From Desulfobulbaceae bacterium (GTDB taxonomy: Bacteria > Desulfobacterota > Desulfobulbia > Desulfobulbales > Desulfocapsaceae), in contig JAUVON010000044.1 in the NCBI GenBank assembly GCA_030599175.1, positions 1 through 12,757 of the forward strand: a stretch of DNA of 12,757 bases, given 5' to 3'. This document shows positions 822 through 12,570 of the stretch, in pieces. Below the pieces are notes generated by a model, which was not told the origin of the DNA, did no database searches, and was given only the letters and a program-made list of their open reading frames with translations. The translations under genes were made by a program, and so were the position numbers. Position 1 is the stretch's first letter. Each line of letters starts with the position of its first letter.

Positions 822-1712
822 TTATGGCGTCAAATCGGCCGCAGCCATAATATCCGGCACTAACTCCTCTTTTCCTATGGCCATAATGTGGACACCATCA
901 CATATTTTCTCAGTGTGGATTGCTTTAATCATCCGTCCGGCAATTTCTATTCCTTTTACTATTGCGCCTCCCTTGGGTGCCTGGGCCATTTCATCAATCA
1001 GCGGTTGAGGAACATTAACCCCGGCAATGTTTTTATTCATAAACCTGGCCATGGGAGCAGATGTCAGTAAGATAATGCCAACAAGTATTTTTACGGGAAA
1101 TTGTCTTGCGTATTCCATAAATGATTTGAATTTATCAAGATCAAAAACGGCCTGTGTCTGGATGAATTCAGCACCGGCTTCGATTTTTTTCTCAAATTTT
1201 ATAAGCTGAGGTTCAAGGGGTTTTGCTTCAGGTGTGACAATGGCACCTGCACAAAAAGCAGGGGATCCGTCCAGCTCATTGTCGCCAAGGTCTTTTCCTT
1301 TTTCAAGGATCCTGATGGCAGCCAAAAGCTGGCTGGAATCAAGATCAAAAACACCTTTTGCCTTTTTATGATCTCCCAGCATGACCGAATCACCGGTAAG
1401 GCACAGAACGTTGTGAATCCCGCGGCTTGCTGCAAAGAGAAGATCCCCCTGCAAAGCCAGTCTGTTGCGATCCCTGCAAGTCATCTGTAATATGGGCTCA
1501 CCCCCCATTTCTTTTACCATGAGCGCCCCGCCAAGGGAGGGGTAGCGCATCACGGAACTCTGATGATCCGTAAGGTTCATGGCATCGACTTTGTCTTTCA
1601 GCAAATCAATATGGTGGGCAGTCTTTTCCAGGTTTATGCCTTTCGGGGGCGCAACCTCGCAAGTAACGATAAACTTCCCTGAGTCAAGTGCTTTTTGAAA
1701 TGAGGAGATCAT
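822..1712 (-). CDS. metF: 5,10-methylene-tetrahydrofolate reductase, flavoprotein subunit MetF (anaerobic type)
   Basis: Catalyses the flavin-dependent interconversion of 5,10-methylene-THF and 5-methyl-THF in the methyl branch of the Wood-Ljungdahl pathway, in the cytoplasm. The 296-residue protein is a single TIM-barrel MTHFR domain. FIVTCEVAPPKG carries the conserved Glu (E19), TDHQSS follows strand 2, LQMTCRDRNR covers residues 75-84, and LCLTGD (103-108) ends in the conserved Asp that corresponds to the ALRGD Asp of E. coli MetF. The length and lack of a regulatory extension fit the short anaerobic enzymes that partner MetV. The start is an ATG with an AGAAAGGA ribosome site upstream. 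It follows metV by 107 bases, a gap longer than elsewhere in the operon and holding small hairpins. The direction (methyl oxidation or synthesis) cannot be told. It is intact and the family call is firm. Confidence 0.93.
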   Translation of the reverse strand: MISSFQKALDSGKFIVTCEVAPPKGINLEKTAHHIDLLKDKVDAMNLTDHQSSVMRYPSLGGALMVKEMGGEPILQMTCRDRNRLALQGDLLFAASRGIHNVLCLTGDSVMLGDHKKAKGVFDLDSSQLLAAIRILEKGKDLGDNELDGSPAFCAGAIVTPEAKPLEPQLIKFEKKIEAGAEFIQTQAVFDLDKFKSFMEYARQFPVKILVGIILLTSAPMARFMNKNIAGVNVPQPLIDEMAQAPKGGAIVKGIEIAGRMIKAIHTEKICDGVHIMAIGKEELVPDIMAAADLTP

Positions 1713-1746
1713 AGCTTAATGGTCCTTTCTGGCCTTTGTAGTTTAC

Positions 1747-1790
1747 GGCAACATTGCAAAATTGCCTTTTCACCCGAGATCTGGATCTCG
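1747..1790. other. Intercistronic hairpins between metV and metF
   Basis: The 107-base metV-metF gap holds two small inverted repeats. CGAGAT (1775-1780) pairs with ATCTCG (1785-1790) around a four-base loop. GGCAA (1747-1751) pairs with TTGCC (1762-1766). Neither is followed by a U-run in the direction of transcription, so they are not convincing terminators. An mRNA-processing or stabilising role is possible. Confidence 0.35.
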
Positions 1791-1819
1791 AATGAAAACT
1801 CTAATTTTTCAAGGTAACC

Positions 1820-2473
1820 TTACGATTTCGATATTTCATATTTCCCGGGTGTTGGCTCACCCAGAAAATTTCTCGGGCCCTGGAGTTTTCGCATGGAATC
1901 CAGTCGGCCAAGTTCGGTCAGCCGATTATATATAAGGGTCCATGCACAATCTTTATTGCTGTCGATTTCACACTTACCTTGATTCGTTCCACCACAGGGT
2001 CCGTTTACCAGCCCTTTATGGCAATTGGTTACCGGACAGATCCCTCCGGTTTCACCTATTATACAGGTTCCGCATTGAGTACAAATTTCATTAAACTGGC
2101 CATACCCGGTCTCTTTTCCAATAAAAAGCGTATCAAGAGCCGGTACTACCATTCTTTTCAACTGGCTTGAAACAGTCTGAACTCCAAAAGCACAAGTCAT
2201 AATCAAAAGGACATCGGCCTGCTCGATTTTCTCCATTTCCTCATTTAAAATCTCGGATGTCAGGTTGTCACAAGCCACGGGAACAACGACCTGGCCGGTA
2301 ACAAGCTTTCCTGAGTCCAGAAGGGCTTCCTTCATGGCAGCTACTTCAGGAGCACCACCGGTGCGTGTAAGGGTTACGCAGGTTCCACAACCGATGATAA
2401 AAATTCGATTAAGCCCGTCTAGAAGAGTGTCAATCTCTTCTTTTGATTTTGGTTTGGTAATCGATCTGATCAT
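1820..2473 (-). CDS. metV: Methylene-THF reductase iron-sulfur subunit MetV
   Basis: MetV (MTHFR C-terminal/zinc-iron-sulfur family) binds MetF and passes electrons between its flavin and an outside donor. The 217-residue protein is of usual length. The N-terminal half has GCGTC (C29, C32), a VACDN Cys (C68) and MTCAFG (C94). The C-terminal cysteine-rich domain runs from ICTQCGTC (C131, C134, C137) through GGICPVTNC (C146, C151), GPCGG (C160), GKCEI (C168) and DCAW (C176). This is the diagnostic MetV pattern, enough for 4Fe-4S and Zn sites. The ATG lies 2 bases after the upstream NuoF-GltD stop, and its GGAGGAGAG ribosome site is embedded in the end of that gene. This points to translational coupling and hence to a shared complex. 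In known systems MetVF uses RnfC2 (Acetobacterium) or HdrABC-MvhD (Moorella). Neither is here; the flavin module upstream is the obvious partner. Confidence 0.9.
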   Translation of the reverse strand: MIRSITKPKSKEEIDTLLDGLNRIFIIGCGTCVTLTRTGGAPEVAAMKEALLDSGKLVTGQVVVPVACDNLTSEILNEEMEKIEQADVLLIMTCAFGVQTVSSQLKRMVVPALDTLFIGKETGYGQFNEICTQCGTCIIGETGGICPVTNCHKGLVNGPCGGTNQGKCEIDSNKDCAWTLIYNRLTELGRLDSMRKLQGPRNFLGEPTPGKYEISKS

Positions 2474-2475
2474 AA

Positions 2476-5400
2476 TTATCTCTCCTCCAGATCACATCTT
2501 AAACATCTTCCCGCTTCCATACGGGCCTGGTCTTCGGTAAAGCCCTTTTCAACTTCACGGAAGTCTTTTGTCCTAGTCACTGAATTTTCAATTTCAATCT
2601 GGATCCTCGGACTTTCTTCCATTGTCTCTCCATCAAGTGCTAGTCCGGCAGTTTCCTCAAATTGTGTTTTTTCATCAAGTATCATTACTGGGCCTTTAGC
2701 GCCTATCAGGTATTTATCAATGGCAATAGCAGCTCTTCTGCCTGAAGCAATGGCCGATATTACTGTTGTCGGACCTGTGATATAGTCACCGCCGGCAAAA
2801 ATACCATCAACGTTTGTCGTCAAGCTGTTGCTGTCTACTTCCAGGCTGCCCCACAACGACCTCTCCAGTTGGCTGTCTTCTGAAATAAAAGAGGAGTCCG
2901 GTGCCTGGCCTATTGCAATAATAATTGTATCTGCATCGACCTTCAGGGTTCTATCTTTTTCAACCTTTATATAAGACCTGCCATCCGGTTCCAAAATGGC
3001 TTTGCTCCCTGTGAATTCAATGCCTGTAACACTGCCGTTTTCATGGATGATTCTCCCTGGTGACCAGAAAGGCTTTATAATAACGCCTTCTTCAACAGCC
3101 TCTTCAATATCTTTTTCCCAGGCGGGCATCTCTTCGATACCGCGGCGGTAATAGATATGGACATCCTGAGCACCGACTCGAAGAGCAGTTCTGGCTGTGT
3201 CAAAAGCAACATTTCCTCCCCCGATGACGACAACTTTACCTTCCAGCGCAATCTTTTTTCCGAGCCTTATGTCCGTTAAGAACTGAAGTCCATAAAAAAG
3301 CCCGTCCAACTCCAGCTCTTCGCCTGGAATTCCTACCTGTTTACTGGCTTGAGCACCGGCTGCGATAAACACAGCATCGAATCCTTCTCTCAAGAGATCG
3401 TTTACTGTGCGCTTTGCATCGATGGGGGTGTTGTAGCAAATTTCAATGCCGCAACTCTCAATATATTTTATCTCTTCCTCAATAATTTCACGGGGAAGCC
3501 TGAATTCAGGAACGGCAATACCCAGCATCCCGCCACCAACTTTTTGAGATTCAAACACGGTAGTTTTATATCCCATCTGGGATAGAAAATATGCACAGGA
3601 CAGCCCGGCAGGGCCAGCACCCACAACAGCAACTTTCTCGGAGTAAATGATGGGGAAGGACTTTTTTGCCATACCGATATTTTCAAAATACCAGTCAGAG
3701 GCAAACCGTTTGAGTGTTCTAATGGCAATGGCTTCGTCAAGTTCTCCACGCCTGCATTTAGTTTCGCATGGATGAATGCAGATTCGACCGCAAACTGCAG
3801 GGAACGGGTTGCGCTCCCTGATAATATCAACGGCTTGTTCGTAGTTGCCGCAGGCAATAGCAGCAACATAATTGGGAACATCAATTCCGGCAGGGCAGGC
3901 ATGCTGGCATGCTGAAATCACCATAGAATCGCATACTGCACCGGCACAGCGATGTTCCTTGATATGATCCTCATATTCCTTGGTAAAATATCTTAAAGTG
4001 GATAGGGCAGGATTTGCGCAGCTTTGTCCAAGACCGCAGAGGGAGGCAGATGTAATTGTCTCACCCAGATCTTTAATGGCCTGGATATCTTCCATACGAC
4101 CCTCGCCATTTGTGATCTTTGTTAATATTTTTAAAAGCTGGGTAGTACCCAGACGGCAGGGCGCACATTTTCCGCAGGACTCAGATTGGGTAAAGCTCAG
4201 GAAGAAGCGAGCGATTTCGACCATGCAATTATTTTCATCCATCACCACCATTCCACCGGACCCCATGATTGCTCCGATTCGCTGGAGCGTGTCATAATCA
4301 ATAGGGAGATTTAAAAACTGCTTTGGAACGCAGCCACCTGAAGGCCCACCCATCTGAACGGCTTTAAAATCTCTTCCTTGAGGAATACCACCACCAATTT
4401 CAAACACCACATCTTTTATAGTGGCTCCTATTGGAACTTCTACCAGGCCGGTATTATTAACCTTTCCAGCTAGAGAGAATATCTTGGTGCCTTTGCTTTT
4501 TTCAGTACCGACCTTTCCATACCAGGCAGCACCTTTATTTATAATAAGAGGAATATTGGCAAAGGTTTCCACGTTGTTGATGTTGGATGGTTTTCTGTCC
4601 AGCCCCTCCTGGGCGGGGAAAGGTGGCCTTGCTGTCGGCATGCCGCGTTTTCCTTCAATAGATGCCATGAGAGCAGTTTCCTCTCCGCAGACAAAAGCAC
4701 CAGCGCCCATTTTCAGGGATAGATTAAAGTCAAAGCCCATACCAAGAATATTTTCGCCAAGGAGGCCCAGCTCTTTCAGTTGTTCAATTGCAATGTTAAG
4801 ATGATCAATGGCGATCGGATATTCTTCCCTTACGTAAATGTATCCATAAAGGGCTCCCAGGGCATAGGCCCCGATCAGCATTCCTTCCAGTACCGCATGG
4901 GGATCTCCTTCCAGCATGGCCCGATCCATAAATGCGCCGGGGTCTCCTTCATCTGCATTGCATATGATATATTTTGGTTGTCCTGCTGCCTGACGTGCGA
5001 ATTTCCATTTCAGGCCAGTAGGAAAACCCGCCCCCCCCCGGCCCCTTATTCCAGCCGAAAGCACCTCTTCAATCACTTCATCCGGACTCATTTTTGTCAA
5101 CGCCTTGACAATGCCCTGATAACCACCTGCTGCAATATAGTCCTCTACTCTTTTCGGATCAATTCGCCCGCACCGTTTCAAAACTCTCTTTTCCTGTTTA
5201 GCATAGAATGGGATTTGATCAAGGTGGTAGACAGGTACTTTTGTTTTAGGGTCTTTGTATGCAAGTCTTTCGATTAACAGGTTTTTCTTAAGGGTTTTGG
5301 CGGTAATCTCAGGTGCATCTTCGGGAGCCACTCCCTGGTATTGTATACCTAAGGGTTCAATGGCAATAACAGGAGCTTTTGCGCAGAAACCATGGCATCC

Positions 5401-5595
5401 TGTTGATCGGATTTCAATCGTTTCGGAAAGACCTTGTTTCTTTACTTCTTCCACCAGTGCATCTTTAACTGAAGCTGCACCGTAGGCGCGACAGCCGGTC
5501 ATGCAGACATGTACCACAGATTTATCTTCTGCGGTTTTTGACAGGATTCTGTTGCGGAGCCACTCAAATTGTCCGATGGATGAAAGTTTCTCCAT
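2476..5595 (-). CDS. NuoF/HydB-like NADH subunit fused to a GltD/NfnB-like NAD(P)H oxidoreductase
   Basis: A 1039-residue multi-cofactor flavoprotein. Residues 25-100: thioredoxin-fold [2Fe-2S] domain with C31, C35, C67, C71. Residues 140-460: NuoF FMN/NADH domain with GRGGAGFPTGLKW (185-197), NADEGDPGAFMDR (213-225) and GAGAFVCGEETAL (297-309), then an SLBB part. Residues 474-520: [4Fe-4S] motif ESCGKCAPCR plus C520. Residues 544-555 (H544, C550, C555) match the short segment that holds zinc in bifurcating HydB/BfuB proteins and is absent from complex I NuoF (from memory). Residues 560-620: GltD-type ferredoxin domain (C563, C567, C602, C606, C610, C614). Residues 654-1015: two-dinucleotide oxidoreductase with FAD motif GAGPAG (659-664), NAD(P) motif GGGNVA (792-797), an RR pair (817-818) typical of NADP(H) binding, and an IFAGGD motif. 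So NAD(H) and NADP(H) sites share one chain. It starts 3 bases after nuoE behind AGGGAGAAG. Confidence 0.92.
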   Translation of the reverse strand: MEKLSSIGQFEWLRNRILSKTAEDKSVVHVCMTGCRAYGAASVKDALVEEVKKQGLSETIEIRSTGCHGFCAKAPVIAIEPLGIQYQGVAPEDAPEITAKTLKKNLLIERLAYKDPKTKVPVYHLDQIPFYAKQEKRVLKRCGRIDPKRVEDYIAAGGYQGIVKALTKMSPDEVIEEVLSAGIRGRGGAGFPTGLKWKFARQAAGQPKYIICNADEGDPGAFMDRAMLEGDPHAVLEGMLIGAYALGALYGYIYVREEYPIAIDHLNIAIEQLKELGLLGENILGMGFDFNLSLKMGAGAFVCGEETALMASIEGKRGMPTARPPFPAQEGLDRKPSNINNVETFANIPLIINKGAAWYGKVGTEKSKGTKIFSLAGKVNNTGLVEVPIGATIKDVVFEIGGGIPQGRDFKAVQMGGPSGGCVPKQFLNLPIDYDTLQRIGAIMGSGGMVVMDENNCMVEIARFFLSFTQSESCGKCAPCRLGTTQLLKILTKITNGEGRMEDIQAIKDLGETITSASLCGLGQSCANPALSTLRYFTKEYEDHIKEHRCAGAVCDSMVISACQHACPAGIDVPNYVAAIACGNYEQAVDIIRERNPFPAVCGRICIHPCETKCRRGELDEAIAIRTLKRFASDWYFENIGMAKKSFPIIYSEKVAVVGAGPAGLSCAYFLSQMGYKTTVFESQKVGGGMLGIAVPEFRLPREIIEEEIKYIESCGIEICYNTPIDAKRTVNDLLREGFDAVFIAAGAQASKQVGIPGEELELDGLFYGLQFLTDIRLGKKIALEGKVVVIGGGNVAFDTARTALRVGAQDVHIYYRRGIEEMPAWEKDIEEAVEEGVIIKPFWSPGRIIHENGSVTGIEFTGSKAILEPDGRSYIKVEKDRTLKVDADTIIIAIGQAPDSSFISEDSQLERSLWGSLEVDSNSLTTNVDGIFAGGDYITGPTTVISAIASGRRAAIAIDKYLIGAKGPVMILDEKTQFEETAGLALDGETMEESPRIQIEIENSVTRTKDFREVEKGFTEDQARMEAGRCLRCDLEER

Positions 5596-5598
5596 GAT

Positions 5599-6084
5599 TT
5601 AATCTTCTCCCTTGTCCTTCCGGTACTCGCCGAGAACACTGGTAACCTTGATCGGATTCAGTTTGCCGTAATATTCGCGATCGACCATCATCGCCGGTGC
5701 CAGAAAACAGGCTCCCAGACAGGCTGCGGTTTCAAGGGTAAACTGATAGTCAGGGCTTGTTTCTCCCTCTTCCAGATTGAGGTCTTTTTGTATCATTCTC
5801 AGAATAGATTTGCCTCCCTTAACGTGACAGGCAGTTCCCCGGCATACTTTAAGAACGCATTTTCCCTTAGGCTCCGTGGAAAAACCAGAATAAAACGTGA
5901 TGACACCCTGCACCTGGCTGGGGTGGAGATTGAGGGTATCAGCAATAGATTCGATGGCCTCGGGAGGAATGAACCCGATACTCTCCTGGATTTCCTGGAG
6001 GAGGGGGATCAACCCCCATTTTTCTCCTTGGTGCTTTCCTGTAATTTCAGAAAATTTTTCCCAGTCTATTTCACTTGGATTCAT
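5599..6084 (-). CDS. NuoE/HydC-like [2Fe-2S] subunit
   Basis: A 161-residue thioredoxin-like ferredoxin of the complex I 24 kDa family (NuoE, HndA, HydC, StnA). It has an N-terminal helical bundle (residues 8-60, ending GVITFYSGF) and the four [2Fe-2S] ligands in CRGTAC (C81, C86) and CLGAC (C122, C126). In HydABC and Stn, this subunit and the NuoF-like one form the flavin core. The frame stays open upstream to an ATG at 6291, but that extension lies inside the previous gene. Two adjacent ATG codons at 6087 and 6084 follow GAGAAAGGA (6099-6091). I chose 6084 because its 6-base spacing is better; 6087 would add one Met. The stop lies 3 bases before the NuoF-like start and the upstream stop 13 bases before this start, so this is a tight operon member. 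Confidence 0.9.
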   Translation of the reverse strand: MNPSEIDWEKFSEITGKHQGEKWGLIPLLQEIQESIGFIPPEAIESIADTLNLHPSQVQGVITFYSGFSTEPKGKCVLKVCRGTACHVKGGKSILRMIQKDLNLEEGETSPDYQFTLETAACLGACFLAPAMMVDREYYGKLNPIKVTSVLGEYRKDKGED

Positions 6085-6097
6085 CATTTTTCCTTTC

Positions 6098-8809
6098 TCA
6101 CCTTTCCAGCTGCCTGTCGTTAACCCTATCAACCTTGATAATGGAAACCTGGCATGAATCCCACCCGTTTGAGCTGGCGTCGAGAAGGGGTGCCAGTTGG
6201 ATAAGGTGTCTCGCATCATTATGATTATAGGCTGTAGGGATATGAATGAAACCTGACCGGATATCGCGATTAACTTTAACCGTTCTTTCAAGCTCTCCTG
6301 TCAGTGAGGTTACTTTGATCCGATCATCTTTAATCAGATTCATTTTTTTTGCGTCAACTGGAGACACTTCAATTTCTCCTTTAGAATCACAAGTACTTAT
6401 TCGGATGGAATGTTCAGTCCTTGTGCCGCTTCCTAAATGAAACCGAAGTGATTCGAAAAGAGCGGTATATGGATAATCATTGTCCCAGAGAGTTTCTTTG
6501 CTCGAAGCTACAGGTGAAAAACGAATCTGTTCTTCATCGATGTTGCCTTGTTCTTGATTTCTCTCCCTGATCCATATCGGATGTTTGCAGGCAGTTGTCT
6601 CTGAATAGGTGGAGAGAGTACTGCTGATCTCCTTTCTGATACCTTCATGAGTGTTTTTGTATTCAGGGAAGCCCATTTTTTCAGCAATGAGACCTAAAAT
6701 CTCCAAGTCAGATTTTGCATTTCCCGGAGGTCGTAGGGCAGGGGAAAAACATTGAATTTTCCCTTCCATATTTGTAAAACTCCCGGCTTTTTCAGAAAAT
6801 GCTGCACCTGGCAATACTACATCTGCAATAGTAACCGTTTCGTTAAAAAGAATGTCCTGAACGACAACAAATTCGAGGGATTCAAGTGATTTAAAAAGGA
6901 GATTTGGCTGAGGCAGGCTGCGGAGAGGATTTTCTCCCATAATGTAGATTGCTTTGAGACGCCCTTCTTCAGCCTTTTTAATCATTTGAAAAAGATCTAA
7001 CCCTCTGGTCCTGGGAATCTTTGTTTCCCAGGCTTTTTCCCATATATTGCGATCATTCTCATCATTGATCATCAGCCGGCCTGGAAGGGTTTCCGGGACT
7101 GTTCCCATGTCCCATGCCCCTACCAGGTTGTTTTCTTTTGCAAGAACATGAAATCCAGCACCTTTGTAGCCAATGGATCCGGTCATTAGGGCAAGGTTGA
7201 GGAGTGCTTCCATGACCTCTTTGCCATATCGCTGCAACATCAACTCGTCTCCGATCACAAACGTTATTTTTTTCCCTGCTAATAAATCGACCGCGTTATT
7301 TATTGCGTGGATATCGAGATTTGCTTTTTTGACAGATACTTTCTGATCCAGTGATAAAAGATCTGTTTTATATTTCTCATAGCCGTTAGTGAAACGGGAC
7401 ATAAACGAGGTGTCAGTTGCTTCTTTTTCAAGAAGCTGGACTGAGATCAAATTGATCAGCTCAAGATAAAAAGTGTCTAAAAAATTCTGGTTCGACAGAG
7501 GGGATCCAGAAGGGTGAATCGAGATGGAAGAGTGGCCTGTCAGGCTGCCTTTACCAGGATTAGCCACAATCAGCGGTATACCCTTTTTAACACTTCTTTT
7601 AAGATAGTAGTCCAATACCGGCGCAGTTTGAGCTGGCTCTGCCCCTAAAACAAAGATAACTTCAGCCTGCTCCAGTCCGGAAAGAGGACCGGCAAAGAAG
7701 TTAAAACGGCCTGCCTTGTCAGCTCTTCCTTCGATCAGGCTGAGAAAAAGTCTTCCGGAGATATATCCGCCGCTATCAACATTGTTTGTTTCTACGATCC
7801 CCCGTGCAATTTTCTGAAAAAGGTAGTTCTCTTCGTTCGAACATTTTGAGGAGCCGAGAAATGCAATACTTTCCGGTCCGTGCTGCTTTTTTATTTCCAA
7901 CAGTTGATTTGCAATGGTTCCCAACGCCTCATCCCAGGAGGCCGGGGTGAGTTTTTTTTCTTTTCGAACAAGGGGTTTGGTGAGTCTTTGCGTAGAGTTC
8001 AGAAAATCATGGGCAAAATGCCCCCGAACACAAAGTGTGGCATCATTAACACTTTTTTCAATGTGGGAAGGGTTAACATCGACAATCTGGTTTCCGACCA
8101 CACCCAGGGTCAGGTTGCAGCCAATACCGCAAAAACCGCAAATTGAAGCCGACTCCCGTTCCGGGGTTCCTGCAAAGTCAGTTTTTGTTGATAAGGCACC
8201 TGTAGGGCAGATAGACACACATGTGCCGCAGAAGGTACATGTAGATTTTTCCAGAGGCAGTTCATGAAGTGTTGCCGGACGAGATTTGAAACCTCTTGAA
8301 TTATAATCAATAGCGCCGGCACAAACCAGCTCGTGATCTGCCCGAATGCATTTGCCGCAGAGAATGCATTTAGATAAGTCCCGAATGATAAAAGGATTGG
8401 CCTGTTCCAGCGGTTTAGGATTTGGCATGGGATAGAGATGGTTTTCGCCAATACCCAGCTCTGCTGCAATCATCCGCAGCTGGCAGCGATTACCTTTGTT
8501 ACACACGATGCAGGACTCAGGATGTTCGGCCATCATCAGGGAGATAATGTTTCGCCTGTGTTTTATGATTTGAGGCGAGTCTGAGAGAAGAACCATATCC
8601 TGGGCCGCAGGAGTGACGCAGGATGCGAAAAGCCGTCCCGTTTTTTTATCTTCCACCAGGCAAAGTCGGCAGGCGCCAAAAGGTTGAAGACTATGGTGAT
8701 AACACAGTTTCGGGATTTTTATACCGTGCGATTCTGCTGCTTCGAGTATACTTTTCCCCTCAGGGCAGCTGATCCTTTTCCCGTTGATCGTTAGAGCAAT
8801 GGTTTCCAC
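6098..8809 (-). CDS. FdhA/NuoG-like iron-sulfur molybdopterin-fold subunit lacking the catalytic Cys/Sec
   Basis: A 903-residue homologue of NAD-linked formate dehydrogenase alpha subunits and NuoG. Iron-sulfur sites in order are: [2Fe-2S] C36, C47, C50, C64; NuoG-type His-Cys [4Fe-4S] H96, C100, C103, C109; ferredoxin domain CILCGKC (148-154), with Asp158 where a fourth Cys is usual and a Cys at 163, and CTFCGTCVSIC (191-201); and the pterin-proximal cluster C224, C227, C231, C260. The rest follows FdhA closely (SNEENYLFQK, NNVD, NNLVGAWDMG, DVVLPGAAFSEKAGSFTN). At the active site, however, the expected Cys/Sec-His pair after NNVD is Ser351-Gly352, the Ser being a TCC codon and not UGA. It is therefore probably not a formate dehydrogenase but an electron wire, as NuoG is. 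GTG start, with GAGGAG (8823-8818) 8 bases upstream. It heads the tight nuoG-nuoE-nuoF/gltD-metV run. Confidence 0.9.
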   Translation of the reverse strand: METIALTINGKRISCPEGKSILEAAESHGIKIPKLCYHHSLQPFGACRLCLVEDKKTGRLFASCVTPAAQDMVLLSDSPQIIKHRRNIISLMMAEHPESCIVCNKGNRCQLRMIAAELGIGENHLYPMPNPKPLEQANPFIIRDLSKCILCGKCIRADHELVCAGAIDYNSRGFKSRPATLHELPLEKSTCTFCGTCVSICPTGALSTKTDFAGTPERESASICGFCGIGCNLTLGVVGNQIVDVNPSHIEKSVNDATLCVRGHFAHDFLNSTQRLTKPLVRKEKKLTPASWDEALGTIANQLLEIKKQHGPESIAFLGSSKCSNEENYLFQKIARGIVETNNVDSGGYISGRLFLSLIEGRADKAGRFNFFAGPLSGLEQAEVIFVLGAEPAQTAPVLDYYLKRSVKKGIPLIVANPGKGSLTGHSSISIHPSGSPLSNQNFLDTFYLELINLISVQLLEKEATDTSFMSRFTNGYEKYKTDLLSLDQKVSVKKANLDIHAINNAVDLLAGKKITFVIGDELMLQRYGKEVMEALLNLALMTGSIGYKGAGFHVLAKENNLVGAWDMGTVPETLPGRLMINDENDRNIWEKAWETKIPRTRGLDLFQMIKKAEEGRLKAIYIMGENPLRSLPQPNLLFKSLESLEFVVVQDILFNETVTIADVVLPGAAFSEKAGSFTNMEGKIQCFSPALRPPGNAKSDLEILGLIAEKMGFPEYKNTHEGIRKEISSTLSTYSETTACKHPIWIRERNQEQGNIDEEQIRFSPVASSKETLWDNDYPYTALFESLRFHLGSGTRTEHSIRISTCDSKGEIEVSPVDAKKMNLIKDDRIKVTSLTGELERTVKVNRDIRSGFIHIPTAYNHNDARHLIQLAPLLDASSNGWDSCQVSIIKVDRVNDRQLER

Positions 8810-8955: not shown

Positions 8956-9831
8956 TTATTTTAGCTTCGCTGCGTCCAGATATTGCCGTAGCCGCTGCTC
9001 TCCCCCTATCGTAATAATGTGTACTCCCTGACATATATCCTTTAGGCCTGAAACAATGTCGGCGAAGATTTCAATGGAAGCTTTTTGCTTTTCCGGAGCC
9101 TGGGACAGTTTTTTTATGACCCAGTCCGGTACCAGACCGGGTTTCATATGTCGGTTAAGGAATTGGCCCATTCCTGCTGTCCTGATGATCAGGACTTCGG
9201 CGATAACAGGGACTCCAAAGGTATTGACGTTTTTAATGAATTTTTCAAATGAATCCAGATTGAACACCGGTGTTGTTAGAAAATAACCTGTTCCGATTTT
9301 TGTCATTTCTTCCATTTCCTTCATTTCAAGGTCAGGAATGTTTTTCCCCCAGGAAGATTCTACGCCGGAACCAAGCAGAAATTCAGTTTTTTCTGGAAGC
9401 GCATCACCCTCTATGGTATGGCCTTCCTTCATATGATCTAAAACAGAAGATAGCTTTCCAGCATCAACATGGAAAAACATCATTTCCTGAAGGCTGTCTC
9501 CAGTGAGGCGGTAGTCTTCTGTAAAAACAAGCAGGTTTTCGATACCGGCTTCATGGGCACCGATGAGGTCTTTTTGCAGCTGCAGCCTGTTTTTATGGCG
9601 GGTTGTTGTTTGGTAAATTGGATCGAACTTACTCTTTTTTAGAAGGTCGCAGGTCTTTATGGTGTCTCCTACCACACCATCGATTTCTATTTCAGAAACA
9701 GAAACTCCGTCAACACGACCTCGAATGAGTTGTAAATTTTGTATAAGCTTTTCCGGGTCATCTTCAACCGGTGACTGGACTTCGGAAGTAACAATAAACT
9801 GATTTTTTTTCAGTGCATCCTTTAACTTCAT
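8956..9831 (-). CDS. Divergent MetF-family methylene-THF reductase paralogue
   Basis: A 291-residue TIM-barrel protein of the MTHFR family, clearly related to the metF product of this cluster but far from identical by eye. FIVTSEVQSP retains the conserved Glu (E17). TTTRHKNRLQLQ (75-86) matches the substrate/flavin loop. The LTGD motif has become FTED (103-106), keeping the Asp but replacing the preceding Gly with Glu. The C-terminal GVHIITIGGE matches the family end. The protein could be a second reductase, a subunit with another C1 folate, or a non-catalytic partner; the sequence does not decide. It has a strong AAGGAGGT site 5 bases before the ATG. It follows the response regulator by 45 bases and precedes the FdhA-like gene by 146 bases, so it may be co-transcribed with either. 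No MetV is adjacent to it. Confidence 0.85.
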   Translation of the reverse strand: MKLKDALKKNQFIVTSEVQSPVEDDPEKLIQNLQLIRGRVDGVSVSEIEIDGVVGDTIKTCDLLKKSKFDPIYQTTTRHKNRLQLQKDLIGAHEAGIENLLVFTEDYRLTGDSLQEMMFFHVDAGKLSSVLDHMKEGHTIEGDALPEKTEFLLGSGVESSWGKNIPDLEMKEMEEMTKIGTGYFLTTPVFNLDSFEKFIKNVNTFGVPVIAEVLIIRTAGMGQFLNRHMKPGLVPDWVIKKLSQAPEKQKASIEIFADIVSGLKDICQGVHIITIGGEQRLRQYLDAAKLK

Positions 9832-9876: not shown

Positions 9877-10449
9877 TTATCTTAGCTCCAGCAGGCGGGC
9901 CACTTCTTCCTTGAGCTGGGGCAATGGCAGCGGCTTTGAAAAACAGACATCAGCGCCATGTTCCTTCATCTGTTTGAATTTCTCCTCATCCAGATATGCT
10001 GAAAGTACAATAATTTTGGTATCTTTTGTTTCAGGATTCGATTTGACCTTTTTACATACTTCATAGCCTTTAATATCCGGCATCATTATATCAAGAATAA
10101 GGAGGTGAGGTTTGAAGTGATTGACCTGAAGACCTGCCTCAAACCCATCAGCTGCGGAAATGACTTCATAGTCAAATTTATCCTCTTCCAGGGCCATGAC
10201 AATAGTTTCAACTATAATTGGATCATCATCCACCACCAATATTCTCTTTCTTTTCTCTTTCATTTCGTCTTTGGGAATGGGGATGCCCTGTTTTTCCATG
10301 AAGGTTTCGAGATTTTTCTTTTTTATGCGACGATGCCCGCCAACTGTTTTGTAAGCCTCGATATGACCGGCCTCTACCCAGTTGATTATCGTTTTAGAAG
10401 AGACGCGACAATATTCGCTGGCTTTTGCTACTGTTAATATATCATCCAC
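9877..10449 (-). CDS. Response regulator with N-terminal MerR/excisionase-type HTH and C-terminal receiver domain
   Basis: A 190-residue two-component regulator in the reverse of the usual order. Residues 4-51 are a DNA-binding domain of the MerR/excisionase type: LTVAKASEYCRVSSKTIINW is the helix-turn-helix, followed by the wing-like GHIEAYKTVGGHRRI. Residues 68-188 are a receiver domain with acidic residues D75 and D76, phospho-acceptor D120 in LILDIMMPD, switch Ser S150 and Lys K172 in FSKPLP. The frame is open further upstream to an ATG at 10605, but that part is low-complexity and not domain-like. The GTG at 10449 with AAGGGAG (10461-10455) 5 bases upstream is much better. A histidine kinase lies upstream on the same strand, and metF2 follows at 45 bases, so the C1/redox operon is the likeliest target. 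Target and signal are inferred. Confidence 0.88.
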   Translation of the reverse strand: MDDILTVAKASEYCRVSSKTIINWVEAGHIEAYKTVGGHRRIKKKNLETFMEKQGIPIPKDEMKEKRKRILVVDDDPIIVETIVMALEEDKFDYEVISAADGFEAGLQVNHFKPHLLILDIMMPDIKGYEVCKKVKSNPETKDTKIIVLSAYLDEEKFKQMKEHGADVCFSKPLPLPQLKEEVARLLELR

Positions 10450-10746
10450 GGTAACTCCCTTGTTATAAATACTGGTAATATGTTTATTATAGATATTATA
10501 GATTTGCTTCGCTGTCAAGAACTTTCTATATAAACACCTCATTACCCCTTGCTCTAGGGTGTAAGGTGTTATAATATTAAGAATATTATTAATTTGGCTA
10601 AACAATTAAAAGAATACTGAGTTTATAGTTATTCTAGAAATTATAGATTTATAATGAGAAAATGGAGGGCAGGGATAAAAGTGCAAGCACTCAATGGCAA
10701 GATAACAGGAAAAAGGAAACTATAAAGATGGGAAGGAAATGTTGAG
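10450..10746 (-). promoter_or_regulatory. AT-rich kinase-regulator intergenic region with promoter-like elements
   Basis: These 297 bases hold no gene. On the minus strand a perfect TTGACA lies at 10518-10513. TATAAT hexamers follow at 10500-10495 and 10491-10486, but at 12 and 21 bases, so the -10 assignment is uncertain; TATCTA sits at the ideal 17. The 11-mer ATTATAGATTT (plus strand) occurs at 10495-10505 and 10640-10650, and the palindrome TTCTAGAA at 10632-10639. A short hairpin AGTGC/GCACT (10691-10680) followed by four T could be a weak terminator for the kinase gene. The region probably carries the regulator's own promoter. Confidence 0.4.
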
Positions 10747-12570
10747 TTATTCGGGTTGACTGTGAACAGGAAGTGTGATTATGAAATTGGTACCGGCCCC
10801 CTCTGTGCTTTCAACCTTGATATCTCCTCCATGCTCTACGATAAAACCATAGCAAACTGACAGACCAAGGCCAACGCCTTTCACACTGCTTTTAGTGGTA
10901 AAGAATGCATCGAATATTTTAGTTTTATTTTCTTCATTGATCCCCATCCCGGTGTCTGATATTTCAATCACAATCTCTCGATCTTCGGCACTTGTCTTTA
11001 CGGTTAGTGTCCCGCCATCCGGCATGGCGTCTCCGGCATTATTGAAAATGTTCAGAAAAACCTGCCGCAACTGATTTTTTGATGCGTAGACCAGATCCAG
11101 ACCATCGGATAAGACCATAGATATTAAGATATCATTTTCACGGAACTGCTTTTTGTGTAAAAGAAGGATCTCATCAAGAATGGTATTGATATCAACAGGC
11201 TGTTTTTCTTTCTGGTCGGGCTTTGAAAAAGTCAGCATTTTACGCAGCAGTTCGCTGAGACGGACAATTTCAGAAAGAGCCATGTCTAATAATTTTCTTC
11301 GTTTATTGTCTGGAGAGATTTCAGTTTTCATCAGCTCAAGAGTGTTCATTATACCGTATAACGGATTATTCAACTCATGGGCGATTTGTGAGGTAAGGCG
11401 GCCCATTGCCGCAAGTTTTTCAGATTGGAGCAACTGTTCTTGAGTTGTTTTCAGCCGTCTTTCCATCTCCAGTCTTTCTTTTAAGTCTGTAAATATTCCA
11501 ACAGTGGCTATTTCCTTATGGTTTTCATCATAAACAATAGATGCGGAGAGGTTGCCTTCAGCAATTGTGCCATCCTGTTTGATAAAAACCACAGGATAAA
11601 ATTTCAGGAGACCTTTGCGATCATTTTCATCTGTGCGAATCTTCTCCATTACCTTTTTAGCCATGCCTTCCGGGTATACTTTCGTAATGTTGAGCTTGCC
11701 GACAACATCTTTTGTTTTGTATCCGAGGATCTCTTCGGCAGACTGATTCCAGAGGATAATAGTCCCCTTCATATCCGCGGCCATGATAGAGTTGGCTGAA
11801 CTATGGATAATATTGTTAAGAAAATCGTTCGTTTCCCTGACCTCCCTTTCCATCTGCTTTCTTTGGGTTTGATCTACAATGATCCCTTCATAGCCTGTTA
11901 CATTCCCTTTGTGATCAAAACGTACATGTCCGGTTAAAAGTGCCGGCATAGGGGTGCCGTCTCTTTTTTTAAACTCCACATCAAGATCAATGACACTCCC
12001 TTCCCGCTCAATGGTCTCTACAAAACTCTGACGGTCTTCAGGGCTTAAATAGAGGTCATGGGCAATGTCAATTGTCAGGAACTCCTCCCTGTTCGAATAT
12101 CCGAGCATATCCAGCAACGCGAGATTGGCATCAAGAAACTTTCCCTCTTTACTGCTGATAAATACTCCGCATCCGACAAGCTCAAACAGCCTTCTATAAT
12201 GTTCTTCTGAAGCTTTTAGTTTCTCTTCCTGTTTTTTCTTTAGTGATATATCCCGGAAAATACTTAATTTAGATAGGGTTCCATCATCGTTTTTCAGGGG
12301 TACTTCGACGATATCATAGAATTTACCGGCTATTTTATTGTACACCTCCTGGTGAAGCGTTTCCCCGGTAAATACTCTTGCTGCTTCACAATTGGTGCAG
12401 ATTTTATTACGGTTTTCTAGAGTCTTGTAACATTTTGTCCCAATACCATCGGAAAAATTTTCCACCATTACCGAATTCATGAATTCAATGGTTAAGTCCT
12501 GGTTAACAATGCAGACACCGTCTGCCATGGTTTCAAAAATAGTGATGAGTTTCTGGAGGTCATTTTTCAT
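10747..12570 (-). CDS. Soluble three-PAS sensor histidine kinase
   Basis: A 607-residue cytoplasmic histidine kinase without transmembrane segments or signal peptide. PAS1 (about 5-110) has a cysteine group, C47 plus CTNC (C58, C61), and C20, which could bind a metal or sense redox. PAS2 covers about 122-238 (LGYSNREEF, GYEGIIVDQTQRK). PAS3 covers about 248-366 (ILGYKTKDVVG, GIFTDLKER). A short coiled coil then leads to HisKA with the phospho-accepting H398 in IAHELNNPL. The HATPase domain has the N box (N507, N511), DTGMGI (D539) and GVGLGL (565-570). The class is the NtrB-like family common in deltaproteobacteria. It is the natural partner for the response regulator 297 bases downstream on the same strand. 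No clear Shine-Dalgarno precedes the ATG (upstream is GGGTGCCCCAAA), so the start is somewhat uncertain. The signal is unknown. Confidence 0.9.
   Translation of the reverse strand: MKNDLQKLITIFETMADGVCIVNQDLTIEFMNSVMVENFSDGIGTKCYKTLENRNKICTNCEAARVFTGETLHQEVYNKIAGKFYDIVEVPLKNDDGTLSKLSIFRDISLKKKQEEKLKASEEHYRRLFELVGCGVFISSKEGKFLDANLALLDMLGYSNREEFLTIDIAHDLYLSPEDRQSFVETIEREGSVIDLDVEFKKRDGTPMPALLTGHVRFDHKGNVTGYEGIIVDQTQRKQMEREVRETNDFLNNIIHSSANSIMAADMKGTIILWNQSAEEILGYKTKDVVGKLNITKVYPEGMAKKVMEKIRTDENDRKGLLKFYPVVFIKQDGTIAEGNLSASIVYDENHKEIATVGIFTDLKERLEMERRLKTTQEQLLQSEKLAAMGRLTSQIAHELNNPLYGIMNTLELMKTEISPDNKRRKLLDMALSEIVRLSELLRKMLTFSKPDQKEKQPVDINTILDEILLLHKKQFRENDILISMVLSDGLDLVYASKNQLRQVFLNIFNNAGDAMPDGGTLTVKTSAEDREIVIEISDTGMGINEENKTKIFDAFFTTKSSVKGVGLGLSVCYGFIVEHGGDIKVESTEGAGTNFIITLPVHSQPE

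Follow-up and report, generated by a model that had tools for sequence, protein, structure and literature searches.

A conserved gene set linking an FdhA-like, Bfu-type electron module to MetVF in a Desulfobulbaceae bacterium: an instance of the proposed X-type methylene-tetrahydrofolate reductase

The window analyzed here, a 12,757-nucleotide (nt) stretch of DNA from a Desulfobulbaceae bacterium, encodes in a row an FdhA-like protein, a NuoE-like protein, a fusion of NuoF with GltD, and MetV and MetF, the two proteins of a methylene-tetrahydrofolate (methylene-THF) reductase (MTHFR). The locus is a real and deeply conserved system. It is an instance of a proposed, unstudied MTHFR type, the X type, which the anatomy described below sharpens. 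We consider it probable (roughly 0.6) that the FdhA-like, NuoE and NuoF-GltD proteins constitute an electron module of the Bfu type and that this module works together with MetVF. The best reading is that a disabled formate dehydrogenase module has been re-used to link methyl-/methylene-THF with the pyridine nucleotides, that is, nicotinamide adenine dinucleotide and its phosphate (NAD(H) and NADP(H)).

Gene order and conservation of the locus

Gene identities were derived from open reading frame calls, Pfam searches of seven window proteins and NCBIfam searches. The five core genes are:

6098..8809, minus strand: FdhA/NuoG-like, BfuA-type subunit (903 residues, GTG start; Pfam, NCBIfam), with the iron-sulfur (FeS) chain kept and the formate site spoiled
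5599..6087, minus strand: NuoE/BfuC-like thioredoxin-fold [2Fe-2S] subunit (162 residues; Pfam 2Fe-2S_thioredx, 165.4 bits)
2476..5595, minus strand: NuoF-GltD fusion (1039 residues; Pfam), a Bfu-type BfuB part (flavin mononucleotide (FMN), NAD(H), clusters B1, B2 and B5) followed by a GltD/NfnB-like flavin adenine dinucleotide (FAD) and NAD(P) module
1820..2473, minus strand: MetV (217 residues; Pfam DUF5981, 118.1 bits, residues 111-203), the FeS/Zn electron-transfer partner of MetF
822..1712, minus strand: MetF (MTHFR, 296 residues; Pfam MTHFR, 134.7 bits), the putative site of methylene-/methyl-THF conversion

The order FdhA-like, nuoE, nuoF-gltD, metV, metF given in the initial annotation of this DNA is thus present. 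Two of its three gaps were also recovered, namely 3 nt between the NuoE gene and the fusion and 2 nt between the fusion and MetV; the FdhA-NuoE gap, given there as 13 nt, is 10 nt, or 13 nt when counted from the second of two tandem ATG codons. MetV directly follows the module, as had been stated for both MTHFR genes, whereas MetF comes 107 nt after MetV.

To assess conservation, database contigs were scanned with the NuoF-GltD fusion; 166 relatives were confirmed, and the best 80 were kept as loci. Nearly all of these are labelled Desulfobacterota or Deltaproteobacteria, and they include Desulfonema magnum and three named Desulfoluna species, along with single metagenome-assembled genomes labelled Latescibacterota, Spirochaetes and Actinomycetes, the last being 52% identical (L085). 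Among these best 80 of 166, the nearest named match of the fusion is from Desulfobulbaceae bacterium S3730MH12 (98%). In 71 of the 80 loci, MetV is the gene immediately after the fusion; the remaining nine lack readable room for it (eight end within 300 bases, and L082 is interrupted by a scaffold gap). NuoE precedes the fusion in 74 of the 80 loci, with no room in the other six, and FdhA precedes NuoE in 66 of these 74, again with six lacking room; in L051 and L085 none was seen. Downstream of MetV, 57 of 71 loci have an MTHFR gene, the other 14 having no room. The fusion-MetV gap has a median of 2 nt and is at most 30 nt in 53 of 66 cases; the median MetV-MetF gap is 76 nt, with some rows mis-assigned.

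From the phylum, 118 genomes were drawn evenly and searched for MetV, the fusion and CdhC. MetV with at least 59% identity was found at 17 places, the next best match having 49%. Rather than occurring mostly without the other three genes, all 17 members of this MetV clade adjoin the fusion: 16 lie beside a fusion match, and the one in G114 lies beside the last 102 fusion residues after a run of N. Conversely, fusions with at least 58% identity number 17, of which 16 have MetV adjoining and one (G019) stops at a contig end; G057 (contig C168) has a 60% fusion match without GltD. Of 20 other MetV loci inspected, none has a NuoF-GltD fusion, and 10 have an HdrA-like gene nearby. Altogether, the conserved synteny of the five genes, proposed as a check in the initial annotation, was borne out in both the 80 loci and the 118 genomes and exceeds what chance would give. 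Of the 17 genomes with the MetV clade, 15 give a strong CdhC match, G083 gives only a weak one and G093 none, against a base rate of 82 of 118 at any strength. The window genome itself, a 2.9 Mb assembly of 430 contigs that is 86.8% complete (the window is contig C409), encodes both dsrA and CdhC.

Anatomy of the electron module

The N-terminal part of the fusion contains the Pfam domain set of BfuB, i.e., the FMN (51K), SLBB and NADH_4Fe-4S domains. The ligands of the Bfu B2 cluster, including a conserved His, and those of the B5 cluster are kept in all 69 aligned fusions. The claim of a bifurcating-type NuoF core is supported: the domains are HydB-like and the B2 site is intact. The C-terminal ferredoxin-type motif of BfuB, CxxCxxCxxxC (B3/B4), was found in none of 68 fusions. 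In place of the BfuB 4Fe-4S ferredoxin domain (IPR017896), Pfam detected the GltD-type Fer4_20; InterPro itself was not run. Ferredoxin reaches Bfu enzymes via B3/B4 (PMC9304861), and the suggestion that ferredoxin is probably a substrate loses its support with this motif. Single chains, including the fusion, were folded by structure prediction. Pfam, fold and nucleotide motif agree on an NAD(P)-binding GltD domain, as had been predicted; the modeled fold of the fusion likewise resembles non-bifurcating formate dehydrogenase beta chains. The nucleotide motif of GltD reads YRR in the window, which is NADP-like and fits the predicted use of NADP(H), but among the 69 aligned fusions, 29 have a motif that looks NADP-like and 40 one that looks NAD-like, and the prediction fits the window but not the motif of most relatives. 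In NuoE, Cys 82, 87, 123 and 127 are conserved in 70 of 70 sequences.

The best matches of the FdhA-like subunit are formate dehydrogenases. However, the position of their catalytic Cys/selenocysteine (Sec)-His pair is occupied by Ser351-Gly352 in the window, and the pair is present in none of 57 FdhA-like sequences: the following His is absent from all 57, and Cys/Sec has been lost from 54. At the Sec column (351), 28 of 57 sequences, among them that of the window, have Ser; three Desulfoluna loci (L055, L056 and L066) have Cys, and the rest have other residues. Serine is a ligand of molybdenum (Mo) in enzymes of the dimethyl sulfoxide reductase type. The FeS Cys residues are conserved except at position 158, where 53 of 57 sequences have Asp and four have Cys. 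In Desulfonema magnum, the FdhA-like match ends at about residue 748 (L013:5216-7366) and the next frame resembles an ATPase gene; FdhA is also broken in L047 and L091, as would be expected if the Mo domain were dispensable.

At the folate end, 12 Cys residues of MetV are conserved in 65 of 65 sequences, and the window MetV contains NGPCGG, as in MTHFRs of the MetVF type, for which it has been named as the MetV motif (PMC8515935). In MetF, E19 and D108 are present in 51 of 51 orthologues (rows chosen by Q187 out of 59).

Proposed function and energetics

The module combines two nucleotide sites (FMN and GltD-FAD) with an FeS chain terminating at a spoiled active site, beside which MetVF is encoded. 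Its likeliest role is to exchange electrons between methyl-THF and the pyridine nucleotides. That the five products form a complex appears quite probable, whereas for bifurcation or confurcation we put the chances slightly below even. We infer the following electron route and direction. MetF would interconvert methyl-THF and methylene-THF, and electrons would travel by way of MetV and the FeS clusters of the FdhA-like subunit to the NuoF FMN, the site of reaction with NAD(H). The B2 cluster beside FMN would lead to the FAD of GltD instead of to a ferredoxin-docking domain, and the nucleotide taken by this FAD would be NADP(H) in the case of the window, with NAD(H) the probable one for many relatives. 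In sulfate reducers of this kind, which have an acetyl-CoA pathway, the enzyme would be expected to act mainly as a methyl-THF oxidase, possibly by confurcation according to methyl-THF + NADPH + 2 NAD+ -> methylene-THF + NADP+ + 2 NADH, near equilibrium. The potentials used (methylene-/methyl-THF -200 mV, NADH -280 mV, NADPH -380 mV, ferredoxin -500 mV) are literature values that mix standard and physiological ones; from these mixed potentials, we computed +15.4 kJ/mol for electron transfer from methyl-THF to NAD+, -3.9 kJ/mol for confurcation with NADPH, and -27.0 kJ/mol for confurcation with ferredoxin.

Several observations weigh against an X-type enzyme with a Bfu-type module of this kind. 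The GltD motif is NAD-like in most relatives, the phylogenetic trees described below conflict on whether the conversion of a formate dehydrogenase happened once, and in Sporomusa a separate transhydrogenase, Stn, is found beside metVF (PMC7483475 and PMC10482914). The last of these is the precedent for FdhA-NuoE-NuoF/GltD as an Stn-like transhydrogenase that is co-regulated with, but separate from, a two-subunit MTHFR, MetVF. NuoE, NuoF, GltD and an inactive FdhF domain are indeed common to Stn and the window, as far as the same sources describe Stn, and the MetV-MetF gap exceeds the fusion-MetV gap, although this places MetV, not MetF, nearest the module. Nevertheless, a single MetV clade adjoins the fusion in 17 of 17 cases, the fusion is missing from all 20 other MetV loci inspected, and the NAD-like motif of 40 fusions would deprive a transhydrogenase of NADP; separate enzymes appear quite improbable. 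Even less credible, and in our view highly improbable, is an NAD(P)-dependent formate dehydrogenase or other molybdoenzyme that merely lies beside metVF. The matches of the large subunit and the Cys in three Desulfoluna loci would suit such an enzyme, and the Ser of the 28 sequences could still allow other Mo chemistry, but the losses at the formate site are nearly uniform, whereas related loci with other partners (L104, L105, L108, L110, L111 and L122) keep Sec-His.

Two further alternatives retain the five-protein complex and differ in what it does. It could be a plain, non-bifurcating NAD(P)-linked MTHFR, in which FMN and GltD serve as alternative nucleotide ports for the electrons of MetVF, much like RnfC2 in Acetobacterium woodii. 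The lost ferredoxin motif and the resemblance of the fusion to non-bifurcating beta chains are compatible with this, as is the report that the NADH-linked type III enzyme does not reduce ferredoxin (PMC8760232); moreover, in the 40 fusions with the NAD-like motif, there would be two NAD sites with no obvious potential difference. However, non-bifurcating homologues lack the B2 ligands (PMC9304861) that are kept in every aligned fusion, and with the potentials used, reduction of NAD+ by methyl-THF alone would be uphill by about 15 kJ/mol. On balance, we regard the plain enzyme as rather unlikely. The other version is a ferredoxin-coupled bifurcating X-type MTHFR, with ferredoxin docking at the FdhA-like subunit or at the GltD clusters, and with NADH-driven reduction of methylene-THF powering that of ferredoxin, or the reverse. 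Bifurcation has been speculated upon in print (PMC8515935), the Bfu core is retained, and confurcation with ferredoxin is the more exergonic reaction, at about -27 kJ/mol; yet B3/B4, the ferredoxin path of Bfu enzymes, lacks its motif here, and we judge ferredoxin coupling to be unlikely. If the Bfu-type module does work with MetVF as proposed, a Bfu core would operate without its ferredoxin arm, and a disabled enzyme would have been kept as wiring.

Relation to described systems

The electron route to or from MTHFR is an open question for organisms with the acetyl-CoA pathway and has been discussed for acetogens (PMC8760232). The initial annotation took the arrangement to differ from the described types, which is not supported, as the claim of a new type was anticipated by PMC8515935. 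There, metFV behind a NuoEFG homologue is reported for Dethiosulfatarculus sandiegensis and "widely in Desulfobacterales and Chloroflexi", is named the X type, and is speculated to bifurcate. Judged by what that paper prints, the window belongs to this type, sharing with it the arrangement of genes, the host group (Desulfobacterales) and the suggestion of bifurcation. The main text of that paper does not describe how the module is built (it never mentions GltD or glutamate synthase, and formate dehydrogenase appears once, in the references), and no such description was found in the literature searched, which excluded supplements and subscription journals.

Close in composition is the Stn/Nfn-Bfu transhydrogenase StnABC of Sporomusa ovata, which likewise combines NuoE, BfuB, GltD and NuoG with an inactive FdhF domain and adjoins metVF. 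In StnABC (PMC7483475 and PMC10482914), GltD is fused to the NuoG-like StnC and the C-terminal cluster domain of BfuB is kept, whereas in the window, GltD is fused to NuoF and the FdhA-like protein is separate. With the HydABC-like Bfu family (PMC9304861), the window shares the three BfuB domains, the B1, B2 and B5 ligands, BfuC and the BfuA-type FeS chain; it differs by the missing C-terminal Fer4 motif (B3/B4) and by its third substrate, which would be methyl-/methylene-THF, not listed as a substrate in that paper (no mentions of methylene or folate). The type IV (6S) MTHFR of Moorella, MetVF-HdrABC-MvhD, also pairs MetVF with a flavin/FeS electron module, but with an HdrA module in place of the Bfu module. 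Neither HdrA nor MvhD was detected by Pfam among the seven window proteins searched. In the type III (3S) enzyme of Acetobacterium woodii, MetVF-RnfC2, an extra subunit likewise brings NADH, RnfC2 taking the place of NuoEF/GltD. Strict synteny fixes the partner module here, and the group includes named isolates (Desulfonema magnum and the three Desulfoluna species), so that the proposed complex should be purifiable.

Related fusions and a possible origin

For related NuoF-GltD fusions with 45-53% identity and other partners ("group B"), 20 loci were retrieved, nine of which were typed by partner. At the six loci that keep Sec-His, FdhA has an in-frame TGA at the Sec position (DHCARL-TGA-H); L107 and L116 have an [FeFe]-hydrogenase partner, and L118 a molybdopterin-type protein. 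The group B fusions with Sec formate dehydrogenase or [FeFe]-hydrogenase are Bfu-like sets without the BfuB ferredoxin motif. One of 21 group B rows, L107:6-3101, lacks the NuoF part and was left out of the tree.

A careful NuoF tree of 69 rows places 29 MTHFR-type fusions together with the Sec formate dehydrogenase locus L104 (100/99), which stands beside L076 (97/88). In a quick FdhA tree, 27 MTHFR-type rows stand apart (99) from six Sec rows that include L104 (97). Despite their conflict, both trees would fit an origin near the Sec formate dehydrogenases. We tentatively suggest, as a scenario that is more doubtful than the function proposed above, that a selenocysteine formate dehydrogenase complex turned into an MTHFR, with a dead formate site, MetVF as the catalytic end, and a Bfu core working ferredoxin-free between methyl-THF, NAD(H) and GltD-bound NAD(P)(H), the GltD nucleotide having switched repeatedly between NADP and NAD.

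Further MTHFR genes and the upstream block

The window genome contains seven MTHFR-family matches. L125 carries MetVF with HdrA- and MvhD-type genes, and so does L127, where MvhD was judged by eye from two short frames; the MetV proteins of these type IV-like clusters are 34-38% identical. Because of these clusters, the module is not the lineage's only solution to the electron-donor problem of MTHFR. L126 carries MetVF with a regulator and a kinase, and L128 carries Hdr-type genes together with a kinase and, next to it, a MetF-like gene. A different MetV-Bfu neighborhood occurs in G048 (L131:2688-8394), where, close to CdhC, a run of genes comprises NuoE, a non-fused NuoF, a BfuA-like gene of 221 residues, two other open reading frames and MetV (48%).

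Conservation extends further upstream of the core in many relatives, to three genes that the initial annotation did not mention:

8956..9831, minus strand: MetF2, a second, divergent MTHFR-like protein (291 residues; Pfam MTHFR, 57.8 bits), accessory and outside the core
9877..10605, minus strand: helix-turn-helix (HTH)/MerR-like response regulator (Pfam Response_reg and HTH_17; synteny)
10747..12570, minus strand: histidine-kinase-like gene (open reading frame and synteny; assigned by reading the sequence, no family search run)

Ahead of FdhA, 43 of 66 loci carry an MTHFR-like gene, 13 lack one and 10 have no room for it. The TGD motif reads T-E-D in 41 of 42 MetF2 rows (chosen by Thr at residue 187). 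Since it lies beside regulator and kinase genes, MetF2 could act in folate sensing or serve as an additional subunit. Judging from its orthologues, most of which align from about residue 50, the response regulator probably starts further inside than the annotated open reading frame.

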